Shown: positions 3,512-37,852 of the stretch, one piece after another
Layout of the letters: every line of letters starts with the position of its first letter
Numbering within the stretch: position 1 is the first letter of the stretch
From: a virus
Direction: 5' to 3' (one strand)
Length of the DNA stretch: 38,716 nt
Virus record (IMG/VR): IMGVR_UViG_3300024352_000054
Location: 1 to 38,716 of that record
Position numbers and translations under genes: made by a program
Notes under the pieces: model-generated
Databases searched by the model: none
Seen by the model: only the letters and a program-made list of their open reading frames with translations
Told to the model about the DNA's origin: nothing

Positions 3512-3694
3512 TCAGCCGTTGGCCAGTGCGAAGGACTGGAAGGCGTCCAGCAGATCGCTGAAGAGCTGGGCCTCTTCCTCGTCCTTGATCAGTTCAGGCG
3601 CTTTGGCAGCCAGCCGGTTAAGGGCTGCAAGGGTGAGCCGTATCTCCTGGCTGTTGACGAAGGCAAAGGAAGGGACGGGTTCGCGGTTGGTCAT
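3512..3694 (-). CDS. Small acidic protein, unknown
   Basis: This 60-residue protein has a predicted helical body (LTLAALNRLAAKAPELIKDE, then EEAQLFSDLLDAFQSFA). Leucine spacing suggests a small helical bundle or dimer. The start is supported by its ACC-rich leader, which follows the pattern of its neighbours. It lies in the leftward operon between a membrane protein and another small gene. No family recognised. Its size and charge would suit a protein inhibitor or anti-repressor, but nothing proves this. Confidence 0.55.
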   Translation of the reverse strand: MTNREPVPSFAFVNSQEIRLTLAALNRLAAKAPELIKDEEEAQLFSDLLDAFQSFALANG

Positions 3695-3697
3695 GGC

Positions 3698-3731
3698 TTG
3701 TGGTGGTGGTTGGTGGTTGGTGGTTGTTATT
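3698..3731 (-). promoter_or_regulatory. ACC/AACC repeat leader, variant
   Basis: The minus strand reads AATAACAACCACC followed by two further CAACCACC units before the ATG at 3694. This is a degenerate, expanded version of the CCAACAACCACC leader. The rest of the 3695-3903 gap holds GGCC-rich short inverted repeats (for example AGGCCT at several places) and a degenerate TGCAC-type site (CAGTGGTGCAC, 3830-3840). I see no gene in it. Confidence 0.45.
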
Positions 3732-3903
3732 GAGAGGCCTCTAGGAGGCCCGCTAAGGGCCTGTCAGTAGCCCAGAGCTGTGAGTGGTGCTGAGAGGCCT
3801 TACAGGCTCTCGCTGGCCCTTGTGAAGGTCAGTGGTGCACAGGATCGCCAGAGCGAACCCCAGCACCACGCAAGCCAAACGGTTACAGGTCATTCCCTTG
3901 CCC

Positions 3904-18101: not shown

Positions 18102-18300
18102 CCATCCGCCCTGCCCTGGTTGCGGCAGTGGTGACACCCGCTGTCAGCAGACCTTCCTCAAGCGTGGGTTTCGCATGAGGCGTCGCAAATGCTTCTGCTG
18201 TGGCCAGATCTTTTACACCGGTCAGCCATTGGAACAGGTGACGCCTTGCCTTGATCCACGCATCCTCCCGCTCTACCCCTATGTCAAAGCTGCTGGTTGA
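18082..18300 (+). CDS. Second small zinc-ribbon protein
   Basis: This 72-residue protein from ATG 18082 has Cys11-x2-Cys14 and Cys37-x2-Cys40 in PCPGCGSGDTRCQQTF and RRRKCFCCGQIFYT. This is a zinc ribbon similar in spacing to the N-terminus of the protein at 16041. The region between the cysteine pairs is highly basic (KRGFRMRRRK), suggesting DNA or RNA binding. It lies directly before the exonuclease, overlapping its start by 20 bases. It could be a transcription or replication cofactor. The frame extends upstream to 18031, but that part is probably not translated. Confidence 0.65.
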   Translation: MGIKSPNHPPCPGCGSGDTRCQQTFLKRGFRMRRRKCFCCGQIFYTGQPLEQVTPCLDPRILPLYPYVKAAG

Positions 18301-19024
18301 TGCCGAGTATTTCCTCTACCGCGCCGCTGCCGGCTCGGAGGTGGAGATCAACTGGCACGGGGATGACTGGACCTACATGTGCCGTCATTCCGACGCGAAG
18401 CTCGGCTTCCAAGAGCAGATCGCTCTGGCAATGGAAGCCGTGCCTGCTGCTCAGCCGATGCTGGTCTTCAGCGATAGCAGCACCTTCCGTTATGGGGTGT
18501 GGCCGAAGTACAAGGCACAACGCAAGAAGATGCGTCGCCCTGCTGGCTACGGCGCACTGATCGAGTGGGTGTCTACAGCTGCAGCCTCCTGCGGCTGGAA
18601 CATCGCTCGCCTGCCCGAGGTCGAGGGTGATGACGTGCTCGGCATCCTCTATGAGGAAGGCGACGTGATCTACAGCATGGACAAGGACATGAAGACCCTG
18701 CCGGGTCGTCACCTTGTTGATGGTCAGGTCGAGCACATCAGCCTGCGGGAAGCAGATCTCGCCTTCTACACCCAGGTGCTGACCGGTGATTCAGCGGATA
18801 ACTATCCCGGTTGTCCGAAGTACGGCCCGGTGACAGCTGCCAAGTTATTGGCTGGTTGTCTCACTGAACTGGAGATGTGGAGCAAGGTGCTGGCTGCCTA
18901 TGAGAAGGCAGGCTTTGATCAGCGCTATGCGATCACACAAGCCCGATGTGCACGAATACTGCGCAGCGGTGAGTATGACCATGAACGGGGAGTTCCGATC
19001 CTCTGGAACCCGCCGGTAGCCTGA
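18281..19024 (+). CDS. 5'-3' exonuclease, FEN family (T7 gp6-like)
   Basis: This protein of about 247 residues begins MSKLLVDAEYFLYRAAAG, with the metal-binding Asp7. The acidic signature EVEGDDVLGILY, then DVIYSMDKDMKTLPG, and a helix-3-turn-helix region (TGDSADNYPGCPKYGPVTAA) place it in the FEN/5' nuclease family. In T7 this enzyme removes RNA primers and degrades host DNA. The ATG at 18281 gives the conserved N-terminus; the frame upstream is not conserved-looking. It ends the DNA-metabolism block before the virion operon. Confidence 0.9.
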   Translation: MSKLLVDAEYFLYRAAAGSEVEINWHGDDWTYMCRHSDAKLGFQEQIALAMEAVPAAQPMLVFSDSSTFRYGVWPKYKAQRKKMRRPAGYGALIEWVSTAAASCGWNIARLPEVEGDDVLGILYEEGDVIYSMDKDMKTLPGRHLVDGQVEHISLREADLAFYTQVLTGDSADNYPGCPKYGPVTAAKLLAGCLTELEMWSKVLAAYEKAGFDQRYAITQARCARILRSGEYDHERGVPILWNPPVA

Positions 19025-19041
19025 CCATAGAGACCTTCACC

Positions 19042-19233
19042 GTGACTATGCTTCCGCGCTTATCTGAACAGCTGGTGGCTGCATTGGCTGCTCAGTTTCC
19101 TGACCAGGCCCCAGACCTGGACTGGAATGAGAAGCAGGTGTGGTTTAAGGCCGGCCAGGTCTCTGTTGTTCGCTGGCTTGCTTCCAAGCTGGAGGAGCAG
19201 GAAGAAGGACCTTTCTCAGTGGAGGAACTCTGA
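19042..19233 (+). CDS. Small protein before the virion operon, unknown
   Basis: This is about 63 residues (GTG 19042, or ATG 19048). It is helical with a Trp-rich middle (DLDWNEKQVWFKAGQVSVVR) and an acidic end (EEQEEGPFSVEEL). The stop overlaps the next ATG (TGATG). It resembles in size the small proteins around T7 genes 6.3-6.5. No family recognised. Confidence 0.6.
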   Translation: MTMLPRLSEQLVAALAAQFPDQAPDLDWNEKQVWFKAGQVSVVRWLASKLEEQEEGPFSVEEL

Positions 19234-19628
19234 TGTGCTTTGGAGGGGGCGGCGGTGGTGGCGCCACCATCACGATGCCTGACACCGGTGCATACGACCG
19301 GATGGCGCAATCGCAGATCAGTGCGATGCAGTCCGTTCAGGACAACGCGATCAAGATCAAGCAGAACGAGTTGAACTCTGTTCTCTCTCGTCAGCAAGAG
19401 CAGCTCACCCAGCTGCGTGATCTCGAAACCCAGAGGGCCAATGACACCAGCGCTCAGGCCGCACGGCTTGCAGCGTTGATCGGTGCGCCGCCTCCAGAGA
19501 AGACAGCAGAGGCTCCGGTCACTGCTGCTGACCAGAACCGCAAGACCTTCAAGGGCAAATCCGCTTTAAGGATCAACCGCCCTGTTGCCACCAGCTCTGG
19601 CCAGGGAGCTGGCCTCAACATCACCTAG
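19233..19628 (+). CDS. T7 gp6.7/gp7.3-like virion protein, copy 1
   Basis: This 131-residue protein begins MCFGGGGGGG and ends SALRINRPVATSSGQGAGLN followed by IT. T7 gp6.7 starts MCF, and T7 gp7.3 ends in a short LSV....GGGINI motif. Both are minor virion proteins ejected into the host. This protein combines the two signatures with a central Gln/Leu-rich coiled coil (about 25-80). It is the first of three adjacent proteins with the same ends (19233, 19639, 20043). It lies just upstream of the portal, in the same place as in T7. Confidence 0.7.
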   Translation: MCFGGGGGGGATITMPDTGAYDRMAQSQISAMQSVQDNAIKIKQNELNSVLSRQQEQLTQLRDLETQRANDTSAQAARLAALIGAPPPEKTAEAPVTAADQNRKTFKGKSALRINRPVATSSGQGAGLNIT

Positions 19629-19638
19629 GAGACCAGCC

Positions 19639-20040
19639 ATGTGTTTCGGAGGATCCCAGCCTCAAGCCCCGCAGATCACCTACCAGGGCCCGAGTGACGC
19701 TGACATTGCTGCCAATCAGGCGGCGCTGGATCAGTACAAGACCCAGATGCAGCAGCAGTCAGCAATGTTCAACACCCAACTGCAGCAGCAGATTGATGCC
19801 GCCAATGCTGAGACCGCTTCACTGAAGACCAAATACGACACCGAGGCTGCAGCGGCAGCAGCTTCTGCAGCAGCACAGCAGACCGGCGCCTATGCCGCGA
19901 CAGCTACCCAGTCCGAGGCACCCTCTTCTGCTCAGACCACAGCGGCAACCGTCAAGAAGGAGAAGCCCAAGAGCAACCTGCGCATCAGCACAGCTGCACT
20001 GCCTAGCGGTGCTGGCACCGGTCTCAACATCGGAGTCTGA
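19639..20040 (+). CDS. T7 gp6.7/gp7.3-like virion protein, copy 2
   Basis: This 133-residue protein starts MCFGGSQPQAP and ends NLRISTAALPSGAGTGLNIG followed by V. The ends match those of copy 1. The middle is a Gln- and Ala-rich coiled coil (QMQQQSAMFNTQLQQQIDAA) and an Ala-rich stretch. AGGAG lies ten bases upstream of the ATG. It probably rides in the virion and is ejected, as inferred from the T7 proteins with the same end motifs. Confidence 0.7.
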   Translation: MCFGGSQPQAPQITYQGPSDADIAANQAALDQYKTQMQQQSAMFNTQLQQQIDAANAETASLKTKYDTEAAAAAASAAAQQTGAYAATATQSEAPSSAQTTAATVKKEKPKSNLRISTAALPSGAGTGLNIGV

Positions 20041-20042
20041 TC

Positions 20043-20627
20043 ATGTGCACCGGATCGACCAAGCAGGGGCCATCTGCTTCGTACACGCCGCCTCTCGTCA
20101 AGCAGCTGTACGACAACCCCAATCCCACCTTCAACTTCGGTGGGGTTGATGACCTTGGCCTGCGCATCCAGTCCGAGCAAGGCCGTGAGTATCTGAGCCG
20201 GATCGAGCGCAATGACGCTAATGCCAATGAGATCAGGTTTCGGGAGGCGCAGCTGAAGGCGATTGCTGATGAGCAGTACCGCCGTGACACGCCTCGTCGC
20301 TTGGCAGCAGAGCGCAGTGCGCTGGCCGCTCAGCAGCAGGCAGAGATGATCAGCTACCAGAACCGCATGGCTGAGCAGCAGGCTCAGCAGAAGGTTCAGA
20401 CCGAAGAGCTGCGTGCTCAACAGGCTGAGCGTGTTGCCGGCATCCGCTCTCGCGGACAGGCCGTCTCTCAGTCCCTGCAGATCCTGGCCCAAGCAGGAGG
20501 TCAGGCCCCTACAGCTTCGACATCCAAGCCGACTGCTGGTCGCGCCGGTGCTCGCAGCACTACTGCCTCTCTTCGGATGGGCACCACTGGTTCCAGAGCC
20601 GGCAGCGGCTCCAATCTCGCGGTGTAA
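20043..20627 (+). CDS. T7 gp6.7/gp7.3-like virion protein, copy 3
   Basis: This 194-residue protein starts MCTGSTKQGPSASYTPPLVK and ends ASLRMGTTGSRAGSGSNLAV. The terminal motif is more divergent than in copies 1 and 2. A long charged coiled coil (about 60-140, with many QQ and EQ pairs) fills the middle. NPNPTFNFGGVDDLGLRI near residue 27 is a distinct N-terminal domain. It directly precedes the portal gene by three bases. The three genes together look like an expanded family. Confidence 0.65.
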   Translation: MCTGSTKQGPSASYTPPLVKQLYDNPNPTFNFGGVDDLGLRIQSEQGREYLSRIERNDANANEIRFREAQLKAIADEQYRRDTPRRLAAERSALAAQQQAEMISYQNRMAEQQAQQKVQTEELRAQQAERVAGIRSRGQAVSQSLQILAQAGGQAPTASTSKPTAGRAGARSTTASLRMGTTGSRAGSGSNLAV

Positions 20628-20630
20628 GCA

Positions 20631-22268
20631 ATGGCCTCAGCACAGAAGCGTTATGACCAGCTGCGGACCGACCGCGATTACTACCTGGAGCGAGCGCGTG
20701 ATGCAGCACGTCTCACGATTCCATACCTGATCCCACGCAGTAACGAACCTGTACGGGAGAACAAGGACGTTCACCTTCTGCCGTGGAACGGTATTGGGGC
20801 TCGCGGTGTTCACAATCTGGCTTCTCGTCTTCTTCTTGCTCTTCTCCCTCCTACGGAGAGCTTCTTCCGCTTCACCGTGGATGAGGTGGCCATGCAGCAA
20901 GAAGAGCTGCGTCTATCGCAGTCGGGTGCTTCAGAAGATCAGATCGCAGAGATGAAGTCTGAGATCGAGCTGGCTCTCAACCGGCTTGAGCTTTCGGTGT
21001 TGCGCAGCATTGAAACCAGCAATGACCGTGTGGCTGTGCATGAGGCACTGGTTCACCTGATCGTTGCTGGCAACTGCTTGCTCTACGTCTCGGAAGACGG
21101 GTTGCAATGTTTCCACCTCAACCGCTACGTGCTGTTGCGTGACCCCATGGGTAATCCCATGGAGGCTGTGGTGTGTGAAGAACTTGCCTTCAGTGCACTG
21201 CCTCTGCCGTTGCAGAAGCAACTGCTTGAACAAGAGGAAGACCTCAAGGGAATCCTTGATGACGAGGATCTAACGGGTAGCAAGAAGGAGAAGCCAGTCA
21301 GGATCTACACCCACGTGATCTGGGCTGATGGTCGTGTCCGCTGGCATCAGGAGGTGAAGGGTCATGAGATCGAAGGCAGTCATGGCTCTTCACCCATGGA
21401 GTCCTCTCCTTGGTTGCCACTGCGCATGATCCGACAGGACAGCAGTAGCTATGGCCCTGGTTACATCGAGTCGGCTTGCATCGCTGACCTGCAAACCGCT
21501 GAGGCATTGAGCCGTGCGGTCTGTGAAGGCGCACTGATCTCCGCCCAGGTGAAGCATCTGGTCAAGCCCAGTGGTGTCACCAACGCCAAGCAACTGGCCG
21601 AAGCACCCAATGGTGCGTTTCTGCCTGGCAACCCTGATGACGTGTTCACCGTTCAAACCCAGAAGGGTGGTGACATGAACGTTGCCATGGCTGCTCTGGC
21701 TCGCGTTGAGGCGCGGTTGGCGCAGGCAATGATGCTGGCGGATGTGCGTGACTCTGAGCGCACAACAGCTGAGGAAGTCCGCCTACAGGCGCAGCAGATC
21801 GAGAACTCTCTGGGTTCGATCTACGCAATCCTCACGGTTGAGTTCCAGTCGCCGTACATCGCACGGAAACTCGAACTCTTCACCCGCAAGGGTGGGATGA
21901 CCAAGCTGCCTGAAGGGCTGGTGAGGCCCATGGTCAGTGTTGGCCTTGCTGCTGTTGGTCGCGGTAATGACCTTGAGAAGACTGCACGGTTCATGCAGAT
22001 CCTGCAGCAGACGCTGGGCCCAGAAGGCATCGCTCAGTACGTGGTGCCTGGCGAGCTGATCAAGCGATTGGCCAGCTCGATGGGCATCAGCCCGCTTGGT
22101 CTCGTCAAGACCGAGCAACAACTTGCTGCTGAAGCACAGCAACAGCAGCAGATGGCAATGGCTCAACAAGCAATGGCGGCCGGTATGGCCGACCCACAGA
22201 AGTTGGCCAATGCCGCTGCCACCTCTCAGGAGATGGCAAACCCACAACCACCTGAACCGACCGCATGA
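20631..22268 (+). CDS. Portal protein (head-tail connector, T7 gp8-like)
   Basis: This 545-residue protein is close to the 536 of T7 gp8. It begins ASAQKRYDQLRTDRDYYLER. The conserved IPYLIPRS and LPWNGIGARGVHNLASRLLL segments follow, near 30-65. A middle domain holds the FRFTVDE and ETSNDRVAVHEALVHLIVAG segments. ERTTAEEVRLQAQQIENSLG (about 370-390) is typical of T7-type connectors, and the C-terminus is Gln/Met-rich. Twelve copies would form the channel through which DNA is packaged and ejected. Its stop overlaps the scaffold start (ATGA). Confidence 0.95.
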   Translation: MASAQKRYDQLRTDRDYYLERARDAARLTIPYLIPRSNEPVRENKDVHLLPWNGIGARGVHNLASRLLLALLPPTESFFRFTVDEVAMQQEELRLSQSGASEDQIAEMKSEIELALNRLELSVLRSIETSNDRVAVHEALVHLIVAGNCLLYVSEDGLQCFHLNRYVLLRDPMGNPMEAVVCEELAFSALPLPLQKQLLEQEEDLKGILDDEDLTGSKKEKPVRIYTHVIWADGRVRWHQEVKGHEIEGSHGSSPMESSPWLPLRMIRQDSSSYGPGYIESACIADLQTAEALSRAVCEGALISAQVKHLVKPSGVTNAKQLAEAPNGAFLPGNPDDVFTVQTQKGGDMNVAMAALARVEARLAQAMMLADVRDSERTTAEEVRLQAQQIENSLGSIYAILTVEFQSPYIARKLELFTRKGGMTKLPEGLVRPMVSVGLAAVGRGNDLEKTARFMQILQQTLGPEGIAQYVVPGELIKRLASSMGISPLGLVKTEQQLAAEAQQQQQMAMAQQAMAAGMADPQKLANAAATSQEMANPQPPEPTA

Positions 22269-31739: not shown

Positions 31740-34610
31740 ATGCCGAAGTTCGATCTCCCACCTGAAGTCGATAGCTACGAACCCACGTGGTCACCGCCTA
31801 AGACGCCACCAAAGATGGGTGCGGGTGAGGCACGGGCTGCTGGTAACCAGCGCATTGAGAACGCTGCTGGTTCTGTGCCTGTTGTTGGCCCTGTCCTGAA
31901 GGGTCTGACGCAGTTCGCCAATGTCCTGGCCAGCCCTGACACCAAGATGGGCATCTTCACTGGCCCGGTGAATGGCATCAGCAAGCTGGGTAATGCTGTT
32001 GGTGATCTGGTCCAGGGCAAGCCGATTGATGTATCGGATGCTTGGACGATCAGCGATCAAAACGCACGTCGCCTGAACCCCTGGCGTGCTGGGGTGGGGC
32101 AGTACGTGGGGCCATCAGACCAGGCAGGTCTGGAGGTTGGCGAGGGGATAGGTGCTGAGCTGGTGGGTATCGGAATCCTTGGCCGACTGCAGAACATCCG
32201 CCGACTGCAACAAGCAGCGCAAGCGTTGAAGAAGACGCAGGCCGTCAAGAGTGCAGCTGTTGCAGCGAAGGTGAACCCAACACTGCGTGCTGGTCTGAAC
32301 GCTGGGAAGAACGTTGGCGAGGCACTGGTCAGCACCACGCTTGCTGTTCCGTTCCTCGATGCACAGGACGGCAACCTGGCGAACCTGGGTGACGCCTTTG
32401 GCCTGAAGCTGCCGGGTCGTGTTGAGCCTGGCGATAACTACCTGCAGGCCCTGGGCAAGTCGCTTGGTGTTGAGGGTCTAGCTGCACCGCTTGCATTGAT
32501 TGGTGCTGGTGCATTGATCAAACCCATCCGTGAAGGGATGGCCACCGGTGGGTTGGGTTGGTTAGACGAGCTGGCTGATGCAGAGCTGGCGCCGTACATG
32601 CCGCAGGCACCTGCTGGTCCTGCACTGCCACCGGCTGCAGCTGCTGATCTGGTGGATAACGGCAGCAAGTCACTGCCTGCCTTTGGTCAGACGGGCTTTG
32701 ACTACGGCCGGCTGGAAGCACCAGCTGCGCAGTACGACTCAGCAATCAGCCGTTCACTGCAAGAGCAGACGCAGATCAAGCAGGTCGAGCAGCAACGCCA
32801 ACGCCTGGAAGGCATGGGTCTGGTGCAGCGTGGTGAAGGTGGCCAGCTGGAGTTCAGCCTTGATGCTGGTGTTGACCCTGAGATCAGGCTGCAGGTCAGA
32901 CAGCTGCAGACGCAGCGTGGTCAGCTGATCAAACAAGCCACCGAGAGCGGACAGGACGTTGGTCAGGAGCTGGCGAACATCGACCAGCAGATCGGTGATC
33001 TGATCCAAAGCGGCAGGGCACAGGATGCGATGGATGCACGGCCACCGGTGCAGCCGGAGCTGGACATGCCTGATGGCCGGCCGGAGTTAGACACCTACCT
33101 GGCCAACCTGGATGAGCTGAGTGATGCAGAGCTGCGTCAGATCCATAGCCGTGTCTGGCGTGAGGATGCTGATGCACGGATGGTGCAGGAACAGGAAGCT
33201 GTTCAGCAGCAGGTTGCAGCAGCACAGCAGCAGATCGAGCAGATCAATGCACGCCGTGATGCTGGTGAGATCACAGATACCGGTGCCAAGCGTCTGCTGA
33301 CCAAAGCAGAGAAGGCACTGACTGATGCAGAGCTAGCGCTGCGTGGCATTGAATCCCGTGCACGGGTGCCTGAATCACTGGTTGGTGATCAGCTGCAGCT
33401 GCGCATTGAACAGCAGGGTCAGCTTGATCTGCTGCCTGCGGTGAAGCTGCCACCGTTCAAGGAGATCACCAGCACTGCGAGCGAGTTCGGCTACCGGACA
33501 GCGGATGACTACCGCAACGCACTGACGGGGTGGACACGTGATCAGCTGCGTCGCTTGGCCATGCCTGAATCGAGCCCTGAGGTGGCAGCACTGGTGAAGG
33601 CACGCACTGGCCGGCGGGTATGGCAAGCCAAGAAGCAGGACATCATTGATGCACTGGTTGAGATCAGCGAGCAGCGCGGTCGCTACCTGCCACCAGAGCC
33701 AGAGCAGTTGGCGATGCAGCTGAAGGCCAATGACTTCGGTGACTCAGCACCACTGTTTGACCGACCGGCGGAACTGGATGTGCCTGGCATGGGCAAGGTG
33801 CTTGATGCCGATGGCAATGAGGTGGTGGTTCCTCTTGAGGACTATGCCCCTCGTGGCATGGATGCCAACACCCGTGAGCGTCTGAAGGCTCAGATCCTGC
33901 AGAAGGCCATCGCTAACGGTGAGGTACAGGCACCCTTCAGCCCACTGCCCAACCGTCCTGTCACCAAGTTTGAGCAGAGTTCATTCATTGGTGAGCTGCT
34001 GGCTGATGAAAGTGGTCAGCTGCCGTTGGCGTATGCCACCGATGCCATGCCCACCTACAAGGCTGGCGGCAAGAACGTTGACTCCCTGGTGGAGGAGATG
34101 CGTCTGCGGTTTGAGTACCAGGTGCTGGATGCTGAAGCGCAGCGTGCTCAGCGTCAGGCCTACATGGCGGCGCATGGGTGGGACAAGCTGACGTGGGAAG
34201 AGCGGAAGCAGTTGGGTGTATTGGGTGAGGGGTTCTATTCCCTGGCTCCTTACAGCGAGCGCTTCCGTGACCCAACACCTGCTGCGCGTTCTGATCTGAC
34301 GCCGGCGCAGCTGGACAAGATGGCTGCCGGTGCCAAGGCAACACAGGAAGCGAAGGCTGCAACACCTCCTCGTGAGCCAGCGGTGTATGCGCTGAAGTTC
34401 GACAACGGCAATCCCGTGGTGGTGAACGAAGCAGCTATTCCAAAGCCCAGCAGGGAGCAGGCCGCGGCAGCCAAGAAGGCCAAGCGTGCTGAGTACAACG
34501 CTGAGCGTGAACGTGCAAAGCGTTCCAACACCGTCTTGGATAAGGAGACGGCCGATCTCCTCAAACAACGGGATCAGATCCTTCGCCAACAACAAGGAGC
34601 TAAGTGCTAA
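31740..34610 (+). CDS. Large internal virion protein, unknown
   Basis: This 956-residue protein lies between the gp15-like and gp16-like genes. The N-terminal 300 residues contain Gly/Ala-rich, mildly hydrophobic segments (GPVLKGLTQFANVLASPDTK and ALVSTTLAVPFLDAQDG). The middle is a charged, Gln-rich coiled coil (about 335-535). The C-terminal third has EYQVLDAEAQRAQRQAYMAA, GWDKLTWEERKQLGVLGEGF and a basic end (KKAKRAEYNAERERAKRSNT). T7 has no separate gene here, so this is probably a split or additional ejection protein. I recognise no domain with confidence. Confidence 0.8.
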   Translation: MPKFDLPPEVDSYEPTWSPPKTPPKMGAGEARAAGNQRIENAAGSVPVVGPVLKGLTQFANVLASPDTKMGIFTGPVNGISKLGNAVGDLVQGKPIDVSDAWTISDQNARRLNPWRAGVGQYVGPSDQAGLEVGEGIGAELVGIGILGRLQNIRRLQQAAQALKKTQAVKSAAVAAKVNPTLRAGLNAGKNVGEALVSTTLAVPFLDAQDGNLANLGDAFGLKLPGRVEPGDNYLQALGKSLGVEGLAAPLALIGAGALIKPIREGMATGGLGWLDELADAELAPYMPQAPAGPALPPAAAADLVDNGSKSLPAFGQTGFDYGRLEAPAAQYDSAISRSLQEQTQIKQVEQQRQRLEGMGLVQRGEGGQLEFSLDAGVDPEIRLQVRQLQTQRGQLIKQATESGQDVGQELANIDQQIGDLIQSGRAQDAMDARPPVQPELDMPDGRPELDTYLANLDELSDAELRQIHSRVWREDADARMVQEQEAVQQQVAAAQQQIEQINARRDAGEITDTGAKRLLTKAEKALTDAELALRGIESRARVPESLVGDQLQLRIEQQGQLDLLPAVKLPPFKEITSTASEFGYRTADDYRNALTGWTRDQLRRLAMPESSPEVAALVKARTGRRVWQAKKQDIIDALVEISEQRGRYLPPEPEQLAMQLKANDFGDSAPLFDRPAELDVPGMGKVLDADGNEVVVPLEDYAPRGMDANTRERLKAQILQKAIANGEVQAPFSPLPNRPVTKFEQSSFIGELLADESGQLPLAYATDAMPTYKAGGKNVDSLVEEMRLRFEYQVLDAEAQRAQRQAYMAAHGWDKLTWEERKQLGVLGEGFYSLAPYSERFRDPTPAARSDLTPAQLDKMAAGAKATQEAKAATPPREPAVYALKFDNGNPVVVNEAAIPKPSREQAAAAKKAKRAEYNAERERAKRSNTVLDKETADLLKQRDQILRQQQGAKC

Positions 34611-37600
34611 TGGCTAGCTGCAACGACCTCAACCAACAGCTCAAAGAGATTGATGATCGCCTTGCAGCTATCGAGTCCGCCAAGCGCGGGCTTGAAGCAC
34701 GGGTTGATTTGGCTGATGAGACCGCCAGTAGCAAGCCAAAGATCTTGCGCACCTGGGATGGCAAGAAGGTCGGTGTTGATTCACAGGAGTGGATCAAACA
34801 GGTCGAGCTTGATGCTGTGCGCATGGGTGATGAACAGGTCAGGCAGCTGGTCCGTTCATCGTTTGATCAGAAGAGCAAGCCTGCTGGTCGCACTGGCCGG
34901 ATGCTCAATTACTCCCAGCTGGAGCCAGATAAGGACAACCTTGCCACCTTGCTTGAGGTGATGGGTGAGACCCGTGTTGCTACCAAGAAGGGTCAAGAGC
35001 TGAAGCAGGTGTGGACTGCTGAGGTGGCCAGCAAGGAACTGCAGATCCTCGCTGCACGCTCAGGTGGTGACCCAGCTGAGATTGCAAAGCAACTGGGCAA
35101 CAGGACCAGAGGACTGAAGAAGCTACCGGCCACGGTGTACATGGTGGCCAAGGCCAAGTGGGATAGCGCCAGTCAGTACGCCGACGCCTTGGATGAGATG
35201 GCTGATGCCATCGAGCAGGGCATTGCATCTGATGCACTGAAAGCCCAGGCCGCAAACGTGGCGCAATGGGCGTATGTGTTTGAGCAGCTGGATGCCTTTG
35301 TTGGACGGAAGGTTGGCCAGGCACTGGTGACCCGTCAGTTCAAACAGGACTTTGACCTCTCCTTGGTGGACATCGGTAAGGACGCTGAGTTCCTCACGTT
35401 GGAGAAGGTGAAGGGCAACTCACTGGTTGCCGACATGCTGAAGCTGACAGCTGAGGGCAATGCCTCTGAGCTGCGTAAGCGTGCAGCAGCGAAGCGCCTC
35501 AACCAAACCGTTGGAGGTGGTGTGAATGAAGGCGGCTTCATGGCTGACCTCAGGCTGCTCAACACCTTCCGTCGCGCCAACCTGCTGTCCTCTGTAGCCA
35601 GCTGGGCTGTTCGCAACCCACTGTCTGGTGCGCTGGTGCAAGCCACCTACATGGCTGAAGACACCGTGTCTGGTGTGATCAGGACCATGAACAAGAACGC
35701 CCTCAAGCCAGGGATGTTCGATGGCCTGCAGGCTTCTGCTCATGCCTGGCGACAGTTCAACTCAGCATGGGGCATGGCATGGGGCAATGCTTCTGAGTCC
35801 TTCCGTACTGGGAAGGGAACGATGGGGGATGAGAACCTCAAGTTCGTTGATCAGAAGAACCTGTTCGAGGATCCCAAGTCCCTGATCAACAACACATTCG
35901 AGAAGTTCAAGACTGATCCCGCTTCTCTGGCCAATCCGATCAACATGTTCAACGCCATGAACGCTGCTGTCTGGCAGGTGTTCGGGCAGGTGGGCGAGAG
36001 GTTCGGTACGGATGCTGGCTATGGCCTGCCCTTCCGTCTGTTGAACATGGGTGATGAGTTCATCAGGACTCAGGCCTATGTGTGGAAGACCAACCATGAG
36101 GCGTTCCTCCGTGCGTCAGAGGAGGGACGTGCTGCTGGCAAGTCCATCGAATGGATCCAGGACAGGGCTGATGAACTGGCCGAGGGCCTGATCTTCGATG
36201 GCATCTACACCGACGACATGCTTGCGGCGTATCGCAGGAAGCGGAACGCGGAGTACGGAATCCCTGTTGGTGATGAGCTATCGGATGATGAGCTGCGGGC
36301 AATGTTGTACGACCAGTACAAGAACGCCCCGAACAAGAACAGTGAGCTAGGTGCCATTGGTTATGAGCGTGGTGAGAACGTCACGTTCACGAGGCCCTTC
36401 GATAACCAGGTCATGGCTGGTCTGAACATGACCCGTCAGAACCCAGTTGTGGGTTGGTTGGTGCCGTTCTTCAAGGTGCCAATGAATGGCATCGGCTGGG
36501 TGTTGAACCGTGAGGCATTGATCCAGATGCCACGTCAGCTGCTGATGGAAGGACGGCAGGCCTTTGCCAAGAACAAGCCATTCACCATGGAGGAGATGGC
36601 TGATGCCCGTGCTCGCACGCTGGTGTCGATGGCGATTGCTGGCATCACCCATGCACTGTGGGAGTCAGGTGTCTTCACTGATGGTGGCAGCAACGACCCA
36701 CGGCAGCGTGATCGTGAGCGTCGGGTGGCACCGTCCTATAGCTTCAGCTTGGCTGGCACGATGCTTGGTGCTGCCAAGTTCCGTGGCAGTGGCATTGATG
36801 TCATTGACCTGATGGGTCTGCACGCTGATGTGCTGCGTGCCTGGCATGACGGGTTGATCGGCAACAACGATGCCGGCATGGCCATTGGCAAGATCATGCT
36901 GGCCCACGGTGAACTGCTGAAGAACAAGGCAGCACTGAAGAACATCAGTGATGTAATGAACTGGGCGCAGGACCCATCGCGTTACGACCTAGGTCGGCTG
37001 GTTGGTTCACAGATGGGTGGCTTGATGCCAGTCAGTGGATTCCTCAGCAACCTGACCCGTTCGGTGTCTGACCCTGAGGAAATGCAGGCACCACGTCGGG
37101 CGATGACGCCTGATGAGATGGCAGCACTGAAGAAGGATCCGTTGTGGAACCTGATCTCTGCACCGTTTGAACTGTTGGGTCAGGCCTTCGCTTCAGCCCA
37201 TGCCAACTACCCAGGTATCGGGATGGCAGTGCCACGCGAGAAGGACTGGTTGGGCAACACCATCCAGCGACCGCTTGGCCTGCCGTTGGACATGACCATC
37301 CCCTTCATGCCTGTGATCAAGCCTGATGACTGGCTCTACAAGGAGCTGGCCAAGCATGGCTTCGGTGACAAGCCCAGACCCGATGGCAAGGTGTCGATGG
37401 GTGGCGTGCAACTGCAGATGACCACCGAGGAGGAGGGCTACTACCGCGATCAGATGCGCACCATTCGAGGGGTGGAACCACCAGCATCCTCTGGCCGGTT
37501 GCTGGACATCACGCAGTACGTGGAAGGCAATGACATGCAGGGTGCATTGCGTGCGCTGTTCCGTGACCCGGACTACCAGGCACTGCTGAATAACCCTGGT

Positions 37601-37852
37601 GGATCAGTCAGCCCCAGTTTGAAGGTGCAGCCTGGTAAGTCGCTGAACGATCGGAAGCAGTCCGCTGGCGGGGACATCTACGCCCCGATCGACGACATCA
37701 TCAACTACTACGACGACCAAGCGATCAAGGCTTTACTGCTGAACAACAGCATGGGATTCGCTGAGCGGTTCAAGCAGGTGGTTCAACAGAAACAGGGCAG
37801 CCTTGAGCAGTACGTGGAAACGATGTCCCCATTGGGAGTGGGCCGCCTGTAG
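34610..37852 (+). CDS. Large internal virion/ejection protein (gp16-like)
   Basis: This is 1080 residues from ATG 34610, which overlaps the previous stop (TAATG) and has AAGGAG upstream. An N-terminal coiled coil (LNQQLKEIDDRLAAIESAKR) leads into a helical region. From about residue 300, ANLLSSVASWAVRNPLSGAL, AAVWQVFGQVGERFGTDAGY and QNPVVGWLVPFFKVPMNGIG are typical of the largest internal proteins of T7-like phages. It lacks an N-terminal lytic transglycosylase, which fits the muramidase being on the gp15-like protein. It should form the trans-envelope channel. Confidence 0.82.
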   Translation: MASCNDLNQQLKEIDDRLAAIESAKRGLEARVDLADETASSKPKILRTWDGKKVGVDSQEWIKQVELDAVRMGDEQVRQLVRSSFDQKSKPAGRTGRMLNYSQLEPDKDNLATLLEVMGETRVATKKGQELKQVWTAEVASKELQILAARSGGDPAEIAKQLGNRTRGLKKLPATVYMVAKAKWDSASQYADALDEMADAIEQGIASDALKAQAANVAQWAYVFEQLDAFVGRKVGQALVTRQFKQDFDLSLVDIGKDAEFLTLEKVKGNSLVADMLKLTAEGNASELRKRAAAKRLNQTVGGGVNEGGFMADLRLLNTFRRANLLSSVASWAVRNPLSGALVQATYMAEDTVSGVIRTMNKNALKPGMFDGLQASAHAWRQFNSAWGMAWGNASESFRTGKGTMGDENLKFVDQKNLFEDPKSLINNTFEKFKTDPASLANPINMFNAMNAAVWQVFGQVGERFGTDAGYGLPFRLLNMGDEFIRTQAYVWKTNHEAFLRASEEGRAAGKSIEWIQDRADELAEGLIFDGIYTDDMLAAYRRKRNAEYGIPVGDELSDDELRAMLYDQYKNAPNKNSELGAIGYERGENVTFTRPFDNQVMAGLNMTRQNPVVGWLVPFFKVPMNGIGWVLNREALIQMPRQLLMEGRQAFAKNKPFTMEEMADARARTLVSMAIAGITHALWESGVFTDGGSNDPRQRDRERRVAPSYSFSLAGTMLGAAKFRGSGIDVIDLMGLHADVLRAWHDGLIGNNDAGMAIGKIMLAHGELLKNKAALKNISDVMNWAQDPSRYDLGRLVGSQMGGLMPVSGFLSNLTRSVSDPEEMQAPRRAMTPDEMAALKKDPLWNLISAPFELLGQAFASAHANYPGIGMAVPREKDWLGNTIQRPLGLPLDMTIPFMPVIKPDDWLYKELAKHGFGDKPRPDGKVSMGGVQLQMTTEEEGYYRDQMRTIRGVEPPASSGRLLDITQYVEGNDMQGALRALFRDPDYQALLNNPGGSVSPSLKVQPGKSLNDRKQSAGGDIYAPIDDIINYYDDQAIKALLLNNSMGFAERFKQVVQQKQGSLEQYVETMSPLGVGRL

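Follow-up and report, generated by a model that had tools for sequence, protein, structure and literature searches.

The window analysed here, a viral record of 38,716 bases (IMG/VR record IMGVR_UViG_3300024352_000054), carries three neighbouring genes, here called A, B and C, that probably encode three paralogous internal virion proteins of the class of T7 gp6.7 and gp7.3. Each protein is two-ended, with a head that starts Met-Cys (MC) and resembles the start of gp6.7 joined in one chain to a C-terminal tail that resembles the end of gp7.3. A sequence-only reading of the window had pointed to these three proteins with an MC start and an L-R-I/M ... G-x-G-x-N-I/L end, and both features can be read in the open reading frames (ORFs), although C ends in SNL and not in LNI/L as that reading worded it; the tail pattern common to A, B and C is x-x-L-R/K-I/M ... 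G-x-G-x-N-I/L, following a basic stretch. It had also named an MCF start for gp6.7 and a similar end for gp7.3, and in the T7 record gp6.7 does start MCF and gp7.3 ends KKSLSVARSSGGGINI. All three genes are intact ORFs, tightly packed and each preceded by a GGAG-type Shine-Dalgarno sequence (Table 1).

Profiles were compared with HHalign using de-duplicated sets for A (25 sequences), B (28), C (30), single two-ended proteins of other phages (51), gp6.7 (21), gp7.3 (30) and, as a control, the family of the 63-residue protein encoded just before A (41). We ran 40 column shuffles per pair for whole profiles, and 30 for runs restricted to the first 40 residues or to the middles. The whole profiles of A, B and C match one another (expectation value, E, of 1.4e-16 for A-B, 1.7e-11 for A-C and 1.9e-12 for B-C), and each matches the single two-ended forms (1.3e-9, 8.3e-8 and 6.4e-5 for A, B and C) and gp7.3 (3.2e-8, 3.0e-7 and 4.9e-4); A and B also match gp6.7 (1.9e-4 and 1.6e-4). 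The single forms match both gp6.7 (6.7e-9) and gp7.3 (6.2e-8), which in turn match each other (6.1e-6). The observed score was reached by none of the 40 shuffles in every non-control pair save C with gp6.7; in the six comparisons with the control family E was 0.48-0.90, and 6 to 35 of the 40 shuffles did as well.

The first 40 residues give E of 4.5e-8 for A-B (0/30 shuffles as high) and 2.3e-5 and 2.7e-5 for A-C and B-C (1/30 each), and the same region matches gp6.7 in A and B (1.9e-4 and 3.7e-4, 0/30 shuffles) and in the single forms (6.8e-6); matches to the single forms are at 2.6e-5 for B, 0.0022 for A and 0.0028 for C. The gp7.3 head matches no other head set (0.38-0.74). By profile comparison, then, A and B have heads related to that of gp6.7, to which C is linked only via A and B, and the tails are related to the gp7.3 end. 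This bears out the common ends that the sequence-only reading had seen, and its expectation that profiles would relate them to the two T7 proteins.

Low-complexity sequence rich in Gly, Pro and Gln could in principle have converged without common origin, and the biased make-up of all members and the shortness of the alignments (20-46 columns in most pairs) would suit such an origin. We nevertheless consider it very improbable, because column shuffles of the same composition never reach the scores seen among A, B and C or between each of them and gp7.3, because C-terminal place, strand and gene order are strict, and because Cys2 is present in 25/25 A and 28/28 B sequences with no other cysteine. 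Chance or composition was rejected on the shuffled profiles and on place.

The middles behave differently from the ends. Middle-only comparison of A and B gives E 0.07, with 2/30 shuffles as high, and we take these middles to be unrelated; A-C (0.0098) and B-C (0.026) give weak matches of 1-8 aligned columns that are yet above all 30 shuffles, and the C middle could have a faint relation to those of A and B or merely a common helix composition. At the level of profiles the ends are thus common to A, B and C, and the middles of A and B are not. AlphaFold2 models A and C each as one helix with both ends unstructured. At a rise of 1.5 Å per residue, the predicted C helix is about 165 Å long. This modelled length is close to the 170 Å height of the P-SCSP1u portal (PMC10575957), which we treat as a coincidence. 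The variable coiled-coil middles of the sequence-only reading are partly upheld, in that the A and C models are helical and the A and B middles unrelated, but within each family the middles are conserved (mean column identity 53% for A, 45% for B and 26% for C).

That reading had taken the ends as tags that sort the proteins into the virion, copied with different middles as cargo, which on this view would be delivered into the host. Common ends, unrelated A and B middles and three copies side by side would all fit, but in the T7 structures each end binds at a place of its own, where it acts as a structural anchor (PMC11784390), the conserved middles are modelled as bare rod-like helices in A and C, and most single-copy relatives have a Pro-rich linker only, with no cargo-sized middle. 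On these grounds we did not adopt this interpretation and hold it to be quite unlikely.

In T7, residues 2-15 of gp6.7 are resolved as 12 copies around the outside of the portal helical barrel, and residues 84-98 of gp7.3 as six copies, each of which is anchored on a pair of neighbouring gp12 nozzle subunits and has K84 and K85 towards the DNA; gp14 likewise lies at the portal barrel. In the DNA-ejected particle, helix 2 of gp6.7 conformer B (modelled over residues 11-59) binds the two-gp12 interface and the turn of gp14 (PMC11784390). PDB entries 9jyy, 9jyz and 9jz0 contain T7 protein 6.7, and 9jyz also protein 7.3; we take them to be the models of that paper, the available text of which names no codes. 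Matched by sequence, the head and tail described here coincide with the stretches resolved in gp6.7 and gp7.3. That the two ends lie in separate proteins in T7, as the earlier reading had it, stands for the head on gp6.7 and the tail on gp7.3, but gp6.7 has a tail trace of its own, GRKGLKVERDD, and the gp6.7 proteins of VP4 and ICP3 (gp34 in ICP3) have both the head and a full tail in one protein. In our reading of the residue range, the GRKGLKVER trace lies inside helix 2 of gp6.7.

By analogy with T7, A, B and C are most likely internal, ejected core/tail adaptors composed of a portal-barrel end, a helical rod and a nozzle end, and they would be present in the virion, bind places equivalent to those in T7 and be ejected. 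The head would be a dock on the portal barrel or core and the tail a dock at the nozzle interface, the binding in both cases being taken from T7, such that a two-ended protein would carry two addresses, the first for its location in the virion head and the second for its location in the tail or extended channel. As struts, the three proteins might assist in placing the core on the portal and, at ejection, in reassembling it into a channel, and the job of T7 gp6.7 and gp7.3 would be done by one protein in Syn5 and by two or three in the window's lineage. The gene place of A, B and C, from exonuclease to portal, is that of T7 6.7 and 7.3, and T7 gp6.7, gp7.3, gp14, gp15 and gp16 enter the cell ahead of the DNA (PMC2525648). 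Mass spectrometry has detected in virions the Peru-2 protein P2_32, which is a relative by gene place, being sited where 6.7 and 7.3 are (PMC13320782).

The three proteins might instead act as assembly scaffolds only, as has been proposed for gp7.3, seating the nozzle on the adaptor and lying outside the ejected core, with the head merely recruiting them to the portal during assembly. The tail is indeed the more constant end and is kept where the C head is replaced, but both gp6.7 and gp7.3 were detected in phiPsa17 virions by mass spectrometry (PMC4517105), and T7 gp6.7, the relative that bears the head, is classed as a core protein (PMC11784390); we think this explanation unlikely.

Several observations nonetheless weigh against ejected internal virion proteins of the T7 type. 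The whole-profile comparison of C with gp6.7 is not significant (E 0.1, 1/40 shuffles as high), and neither Pfam nor PHROG returns an accepted match for A, B or C. At nine of 45 loci the C protein is without the MC head but keeps the tail (L016, L017, L026, L027, L028, L034, L044, L045 and L047). A term search of the S-SRP02 paper, which describes the closest annotated relative, did not find 'mass spectrometry' or 'virion', and the scaffold protein is cysteine-free in 10/10 phages examined, so that a lack of cysteine is no proof of ejection. Lastly, the T7 docks are on different sides of the portal wall and one short chain can hardly hold both at once, so that the two addresses would have to be used in separate states or by separate populations.

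In the Pfam and PHROG scans, A, B and C gave no match to the gp6.7 models PF17570 or phrog_1391 up to E 1 and none to the gp7.3 model PF11653, and phrog_1320, the gp7.3 family, was reached by A alone (E 0.14). Since they pass neither family model, we class them as a two-ended, multiplied variant that is new, and not as members; together with T7 gp6.7 and gp7.3 they probably form one widespread family. A match of B to phrog_4295 'internal virion protein' (0.0012) covers the helical middle and was not used. Pairwise searches of annotated phage records are too weak to see the family: A matches 4 records, C none at E 1, and Syn5 gp36 only the two Syn5 records. Sequence searches of the PDB with the A profile returned two helical chains (0.035 and 0.85), and with the single-form profile T7 protein 6.7 (8.7e-4) and a chain named Gp17 of 9vvp (0.0091). 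The latter, chain S, has 74 residues and is present as 16 chains, and is a gp6.7 relative in another solved structure.

Searching IMG/VR with A yielded 48 loci, of which 46 were traced gene by gene together with S-SRP02; L031 and L048, cut within A, were left out. A, B and C followed by an ORF in the portal's place are found at 45/47 of these loci, that ORF being cut by the contig end in L008, L016, L027, L035 and L046, and at the remaining two (L009 and L039) the contig ends after B. C is the most variable of the three genes. The nine C-type proteins without an MC head share another conserved head, W-[LIV]-[QE]-I-[AS]-PG (e.g. L044 4105-4593), and from these sequences the C head looks exchangeable. 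In the S-SRP02 annotation A and B are hypothetical proteins and C is not annotated; the S-SRP02 copy of C is a 189-residue ORF (MCSGG...) between p037 and the portal gene (L051 13749-14318; MW822601.1 24140-24709).

To survey the end pair more broadly, we used four portal-protein scans (window, Syn5, VP4 and LUZ100; best 80 matches each), which pick loci regardless of motif, and ran a tail-only hidden Markov model (HMM) over the 29,161 stop-to-stop ORFs of these portal-anchored loci at an E cut-off of 0.01. The model was built from the last 36 residues only, partly of proteins picked for their MC start. It gave 305 C-terminal matches, 304 of them on the portal strand, and 17 that were not C-terminal. 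After removal of near-copies there are 165 tail-bearing proteins with a start, of which 122 have a possible MC start, in the sense of any start in frame with TGC or TGT as its next codon, whether or not it is the best start. This survey covers the search for the end pair in other phages that the earlier reading had proposed. Of the 43 with none, roughly half have a basic MG..KK start of gp7.3 type and 8 lie at the edge of a contig; another 8 tail matches are without a start and run off a contig.

Among de-duplicated background genes (positions 4-5 upstream of the portal in the four lineages), an MC start and a tail are each seen in 2/172, or 12/172 for the start if any in-frame MC start is allowed. 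At window-type loci, positions 1, 2 and 3 upstream of the portal have an MC start in 23/34, 21/29 and 13/24 and a tail in 27/34, 22/29 and 15/24; start calls in these counts and in the family sets are heuristic, and some Syn5-type proteins are called at a later ATG. Reading the three upstream genes at 36 window-type portal-anchored loci, misread and truncated genes included, we found three tails at 16, two at 15, one at 4 and none at 1.

Copy number differs between lineages. Syn5-like loci and many LUZ100-like ones have a single two-ended gene, and the window's lineage has either all three or just A and B; T7-like loci have the head on gp6.7 and the tail on gp7.3, and in three of them (L275, L281 and L294) an MC start is found on the gene adjoining the portal. 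A portal tree of 107 rows was given heuristic copy-number labels, partly from truncated contigs and with 23/107 rows 'unclear'. Of its 11 'multi' rows, ten group in a single clade of 16 rows (support 100), whose other rows are 4 single, 1 split and 1 tail-only and whose sister is the Syn5/pelagiphage clade; the eleventh, L281, is within the T7 clade. 'Split' rows are in the T7 clade, in the LUZ100 group and singly elsewhere (L369 and L080). The two-ended form could be ancestral and later split, or could have come from a fusion of two proteins.

T7 gp6.7 (Pfam PF17570 T7-like_gp67; phrog_1391) shares with A, B and C the MC start, Cys2 as its sole cysteine and a gene between exonuclease and portal, but has a mere trace of the tail and no long helix between its ends. 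T7 gp7.3 (PF11653 VirionAssem_T7; phrog_1320) has the C-terminal L-x-V/I ... G-x-N-I tail and a gene that adjoins the portal, as does C; the gp7.3 of most T7-like phages differs in its basic MG..KK start, its lack of cysteine and a head unrelated to that of A. Syn5 gp36, P-SSP7 gp23 (phrog_13568) and HTVC304P gp28 have the MC start and are encoded by one gene before the portal; the tail is full in Syn5 and degenerate in the other two. These single two-ended proteins differ from A, B and C in being present in one copy, mostly with a Pro-rich linker for a helix, and have no known function in the PHROG library. The internal core protein gp14 also has an MC start and no other cysteine in T7, Syn5, P-SSP7, HTVC304P and LUZ100, and the Bylgja and ICP3 copies start MC as well, but it has no such tail, and the gp14-like proteins of the window, S-SRP02, K1E and PT2 are without cysteine.

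In the literature on gp6.7 and gp7.3 returned by our searches, mostly listings with the beginnings of abstracts, we found no description of the shared end pair. It recasts T7 gp6.7 and gp7.3 as belonging to a single family, many of whose members are two-ended, singles out exact residues (Cys2, L-R-I and G-x-N-I), and points to candidates in ICP3 (gp34 and gp36), VP4, LUZ100, Syn5, P-SSP7, pelagiphages and the window's lineage. A 2026 preprint states that gp6.7 and gp7.3 orthologs are not readily identifiable in ICP3; gp34 (L388 2876-3127) has the MC head and tail, and gp36 (3570-3860) a gp7.3-type tail. LUZ100 has an unannotated, gp6.7-like ORF of 67 residues (L056 16627-16830, OP329100.1) with an MCFAKTPKM start, KLRIDL and a phrog_1391 match at E 0.014, and the annotated gp32 that overlaps it may be wrongly started. 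At L145 three MC-headed genes before the portal lack the usual tail, and two end in KYG.

Apart from residue 2, the six family sets contain no cysteine in 21,216 residues; the control family contains 5 in 2,535. The single and gp6.7 sets were picked by MC start, the former with a looser pattern than in the locus survey, so that Cys2 is no evidence there; A, B and C were not so picked. Residue 2 of A, B and C is encoded by either of the two Cys codons, and the constraint therefore acts on the protein. In seven phages (T7, Syn5, P-SSP7, HTVC304P, LUZ100, S-SRP02 and the window), proteins that we ourselves assigned to an ejected class have 3 cysteines outside residue 2 in 18,138 residues, compared with 257 in 28,760 residues of selected other proteins; a background rate from heuristic ORFs was discarded, many of these not being genes. 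The three exceptions are the last residues of the window 31740-34610 product and of S-SRP02 gp46, and residue 6 of the window 34604-37852 product, whose class is guessed. The window 31740-34610 product and that of L051 25418-28468 (S-SRP02) are large late proteins whose sole cysteine is the very last residue.

Cysteine is likewise lacking from P22 gp7, gp20 and gp16 (0/1,309 residues) and from the corresponding sets of K1E (0/2,393) and PT2 (0/2,514). N4 gp50, gp51 and gp52 have none in 4,294 residues, gp51 and gp52 being presumably the 'two additional ejection proteins' of the N4 preprint; gp53 and gp54, which hold 7 cysteines, were dropped as candidate ejected proteins. Near-absence of cysteine save at residue 2, which is our own make-up test and not an established family test, could serve as a simple check for ejected proteins, and A, B and C have none but Cys2. 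Scaffolds fit it too, so that lack of cysteine does not prove ejection, and the link is further weakened by the cysteine-free LUZ100 portal, LUZ100 capsid, P22 gp26 and N4 capsid protein. The virion RNA polymerase of N4-like phages is without cysteine, and passage into the cell has been suggested as the reason (PMC3715699, PMC2784036). Our literature searches, read as listings, gave no statement on missing cysteines for T7 or P22, and a term search did not find 'cysteine' in three ejection papers (PMC12633501, PMC8954989 and PMC11440229).

Cys2 is at what should be the mature N-terminus. It is conceivable, although we are doubtful, that the Cys2 thiols of small portal-barrel core components (gp14, and gp6.7 or its two-ended relatives) have a job, either in forming a ring by which the core is locked to the portal barrel or in cross-links of the rebuilt channel in the oxidising cell envelope. 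The two-ended forms would then be tethers, the tail reaching the nozzle first and pulling the core along behind. The LUZ100 portal, capsid, scaffold, gp15-like and gp16-like proteins have zero cysteines; the head and core as examined being otherwise cysteine-free, Cys2 thiols in this phage could pair only mutually.

Table 1. Positions in the window of genes A, B and C, of their parts and of flanking genes (aa, amino acids; pLDDT, predicted local distance difference test).
Feature	Positions	Strand	Description
Gene A	19233..19628	+	131 aa, two-ended protein (gp6.7-like head, gp7.3-like tail); MCFGG...ALRI...GAGLNIT
Head of A	19233..19280	+	residues 1-16, MCFGGG...; Cys2 sole cysteine
Predicted helix of A	19287..19481	+	residues 19-83; AlphaFold2 mean pLDDT 61.9, low confidence
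Tail of A	19554..19625	+	residues 108-131
Gene B	19639..20040	+	133 aa, two-ended protein; MCFGG...NLRI...GTGLNIGV
Head of B	19639..19683	+	residues 1-15; Cys2 sole cysteine
Tail of B	19969..20037	+	residues 111-133
Gene C	20043..20627	+	194 aa, two-ended protein; MCTGS...SLRM...GSGSNLAV
Head of C	20043..20069	+	residues 1-9; Cys2 sole cysteine
Predicted helix of C	20175..20504	+	residues 45-154; AlphaFold2 block pLDDT 88-98 over residues 51-140
Tail of C	20559..20624	+	residues 173-194
Exonuclease (context)	18284..19024	+	phrog_107, 9.7e-51
63-aa ORF before A (context; control family)	19042..19233	+	phrog_4970, 8.6e-11
Portal (context)	20631..22268	+	phrog_449, 3.4e-143

The order in the window is exonuclease, 63-residue ORF, A, B, C and portal, and the automatic ORF list also gives an alternative TTG start at 19585 upstream of the ATG of B. 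Of the annotated phage records, that of the freshwater Synechococcus podovirus S-SRP02 matches the window best, with 68.3% DNA identity over 56% of the 6 kb around A, B and C. The 63-residue ORF has a GQ-x-SVV motif, also precedes end-pair genes in Syn5-, pelagi- and LUZ100-like phages, and is possibly the counterpart of T7 gp6.5. Near its left end the window encodes, on the minus strand, a tyrosine integrase (1312-2301) and a MarR-like winged-helix protein (2326-2643), and S-SRP02 likewise has an integrase and a MarR gene.

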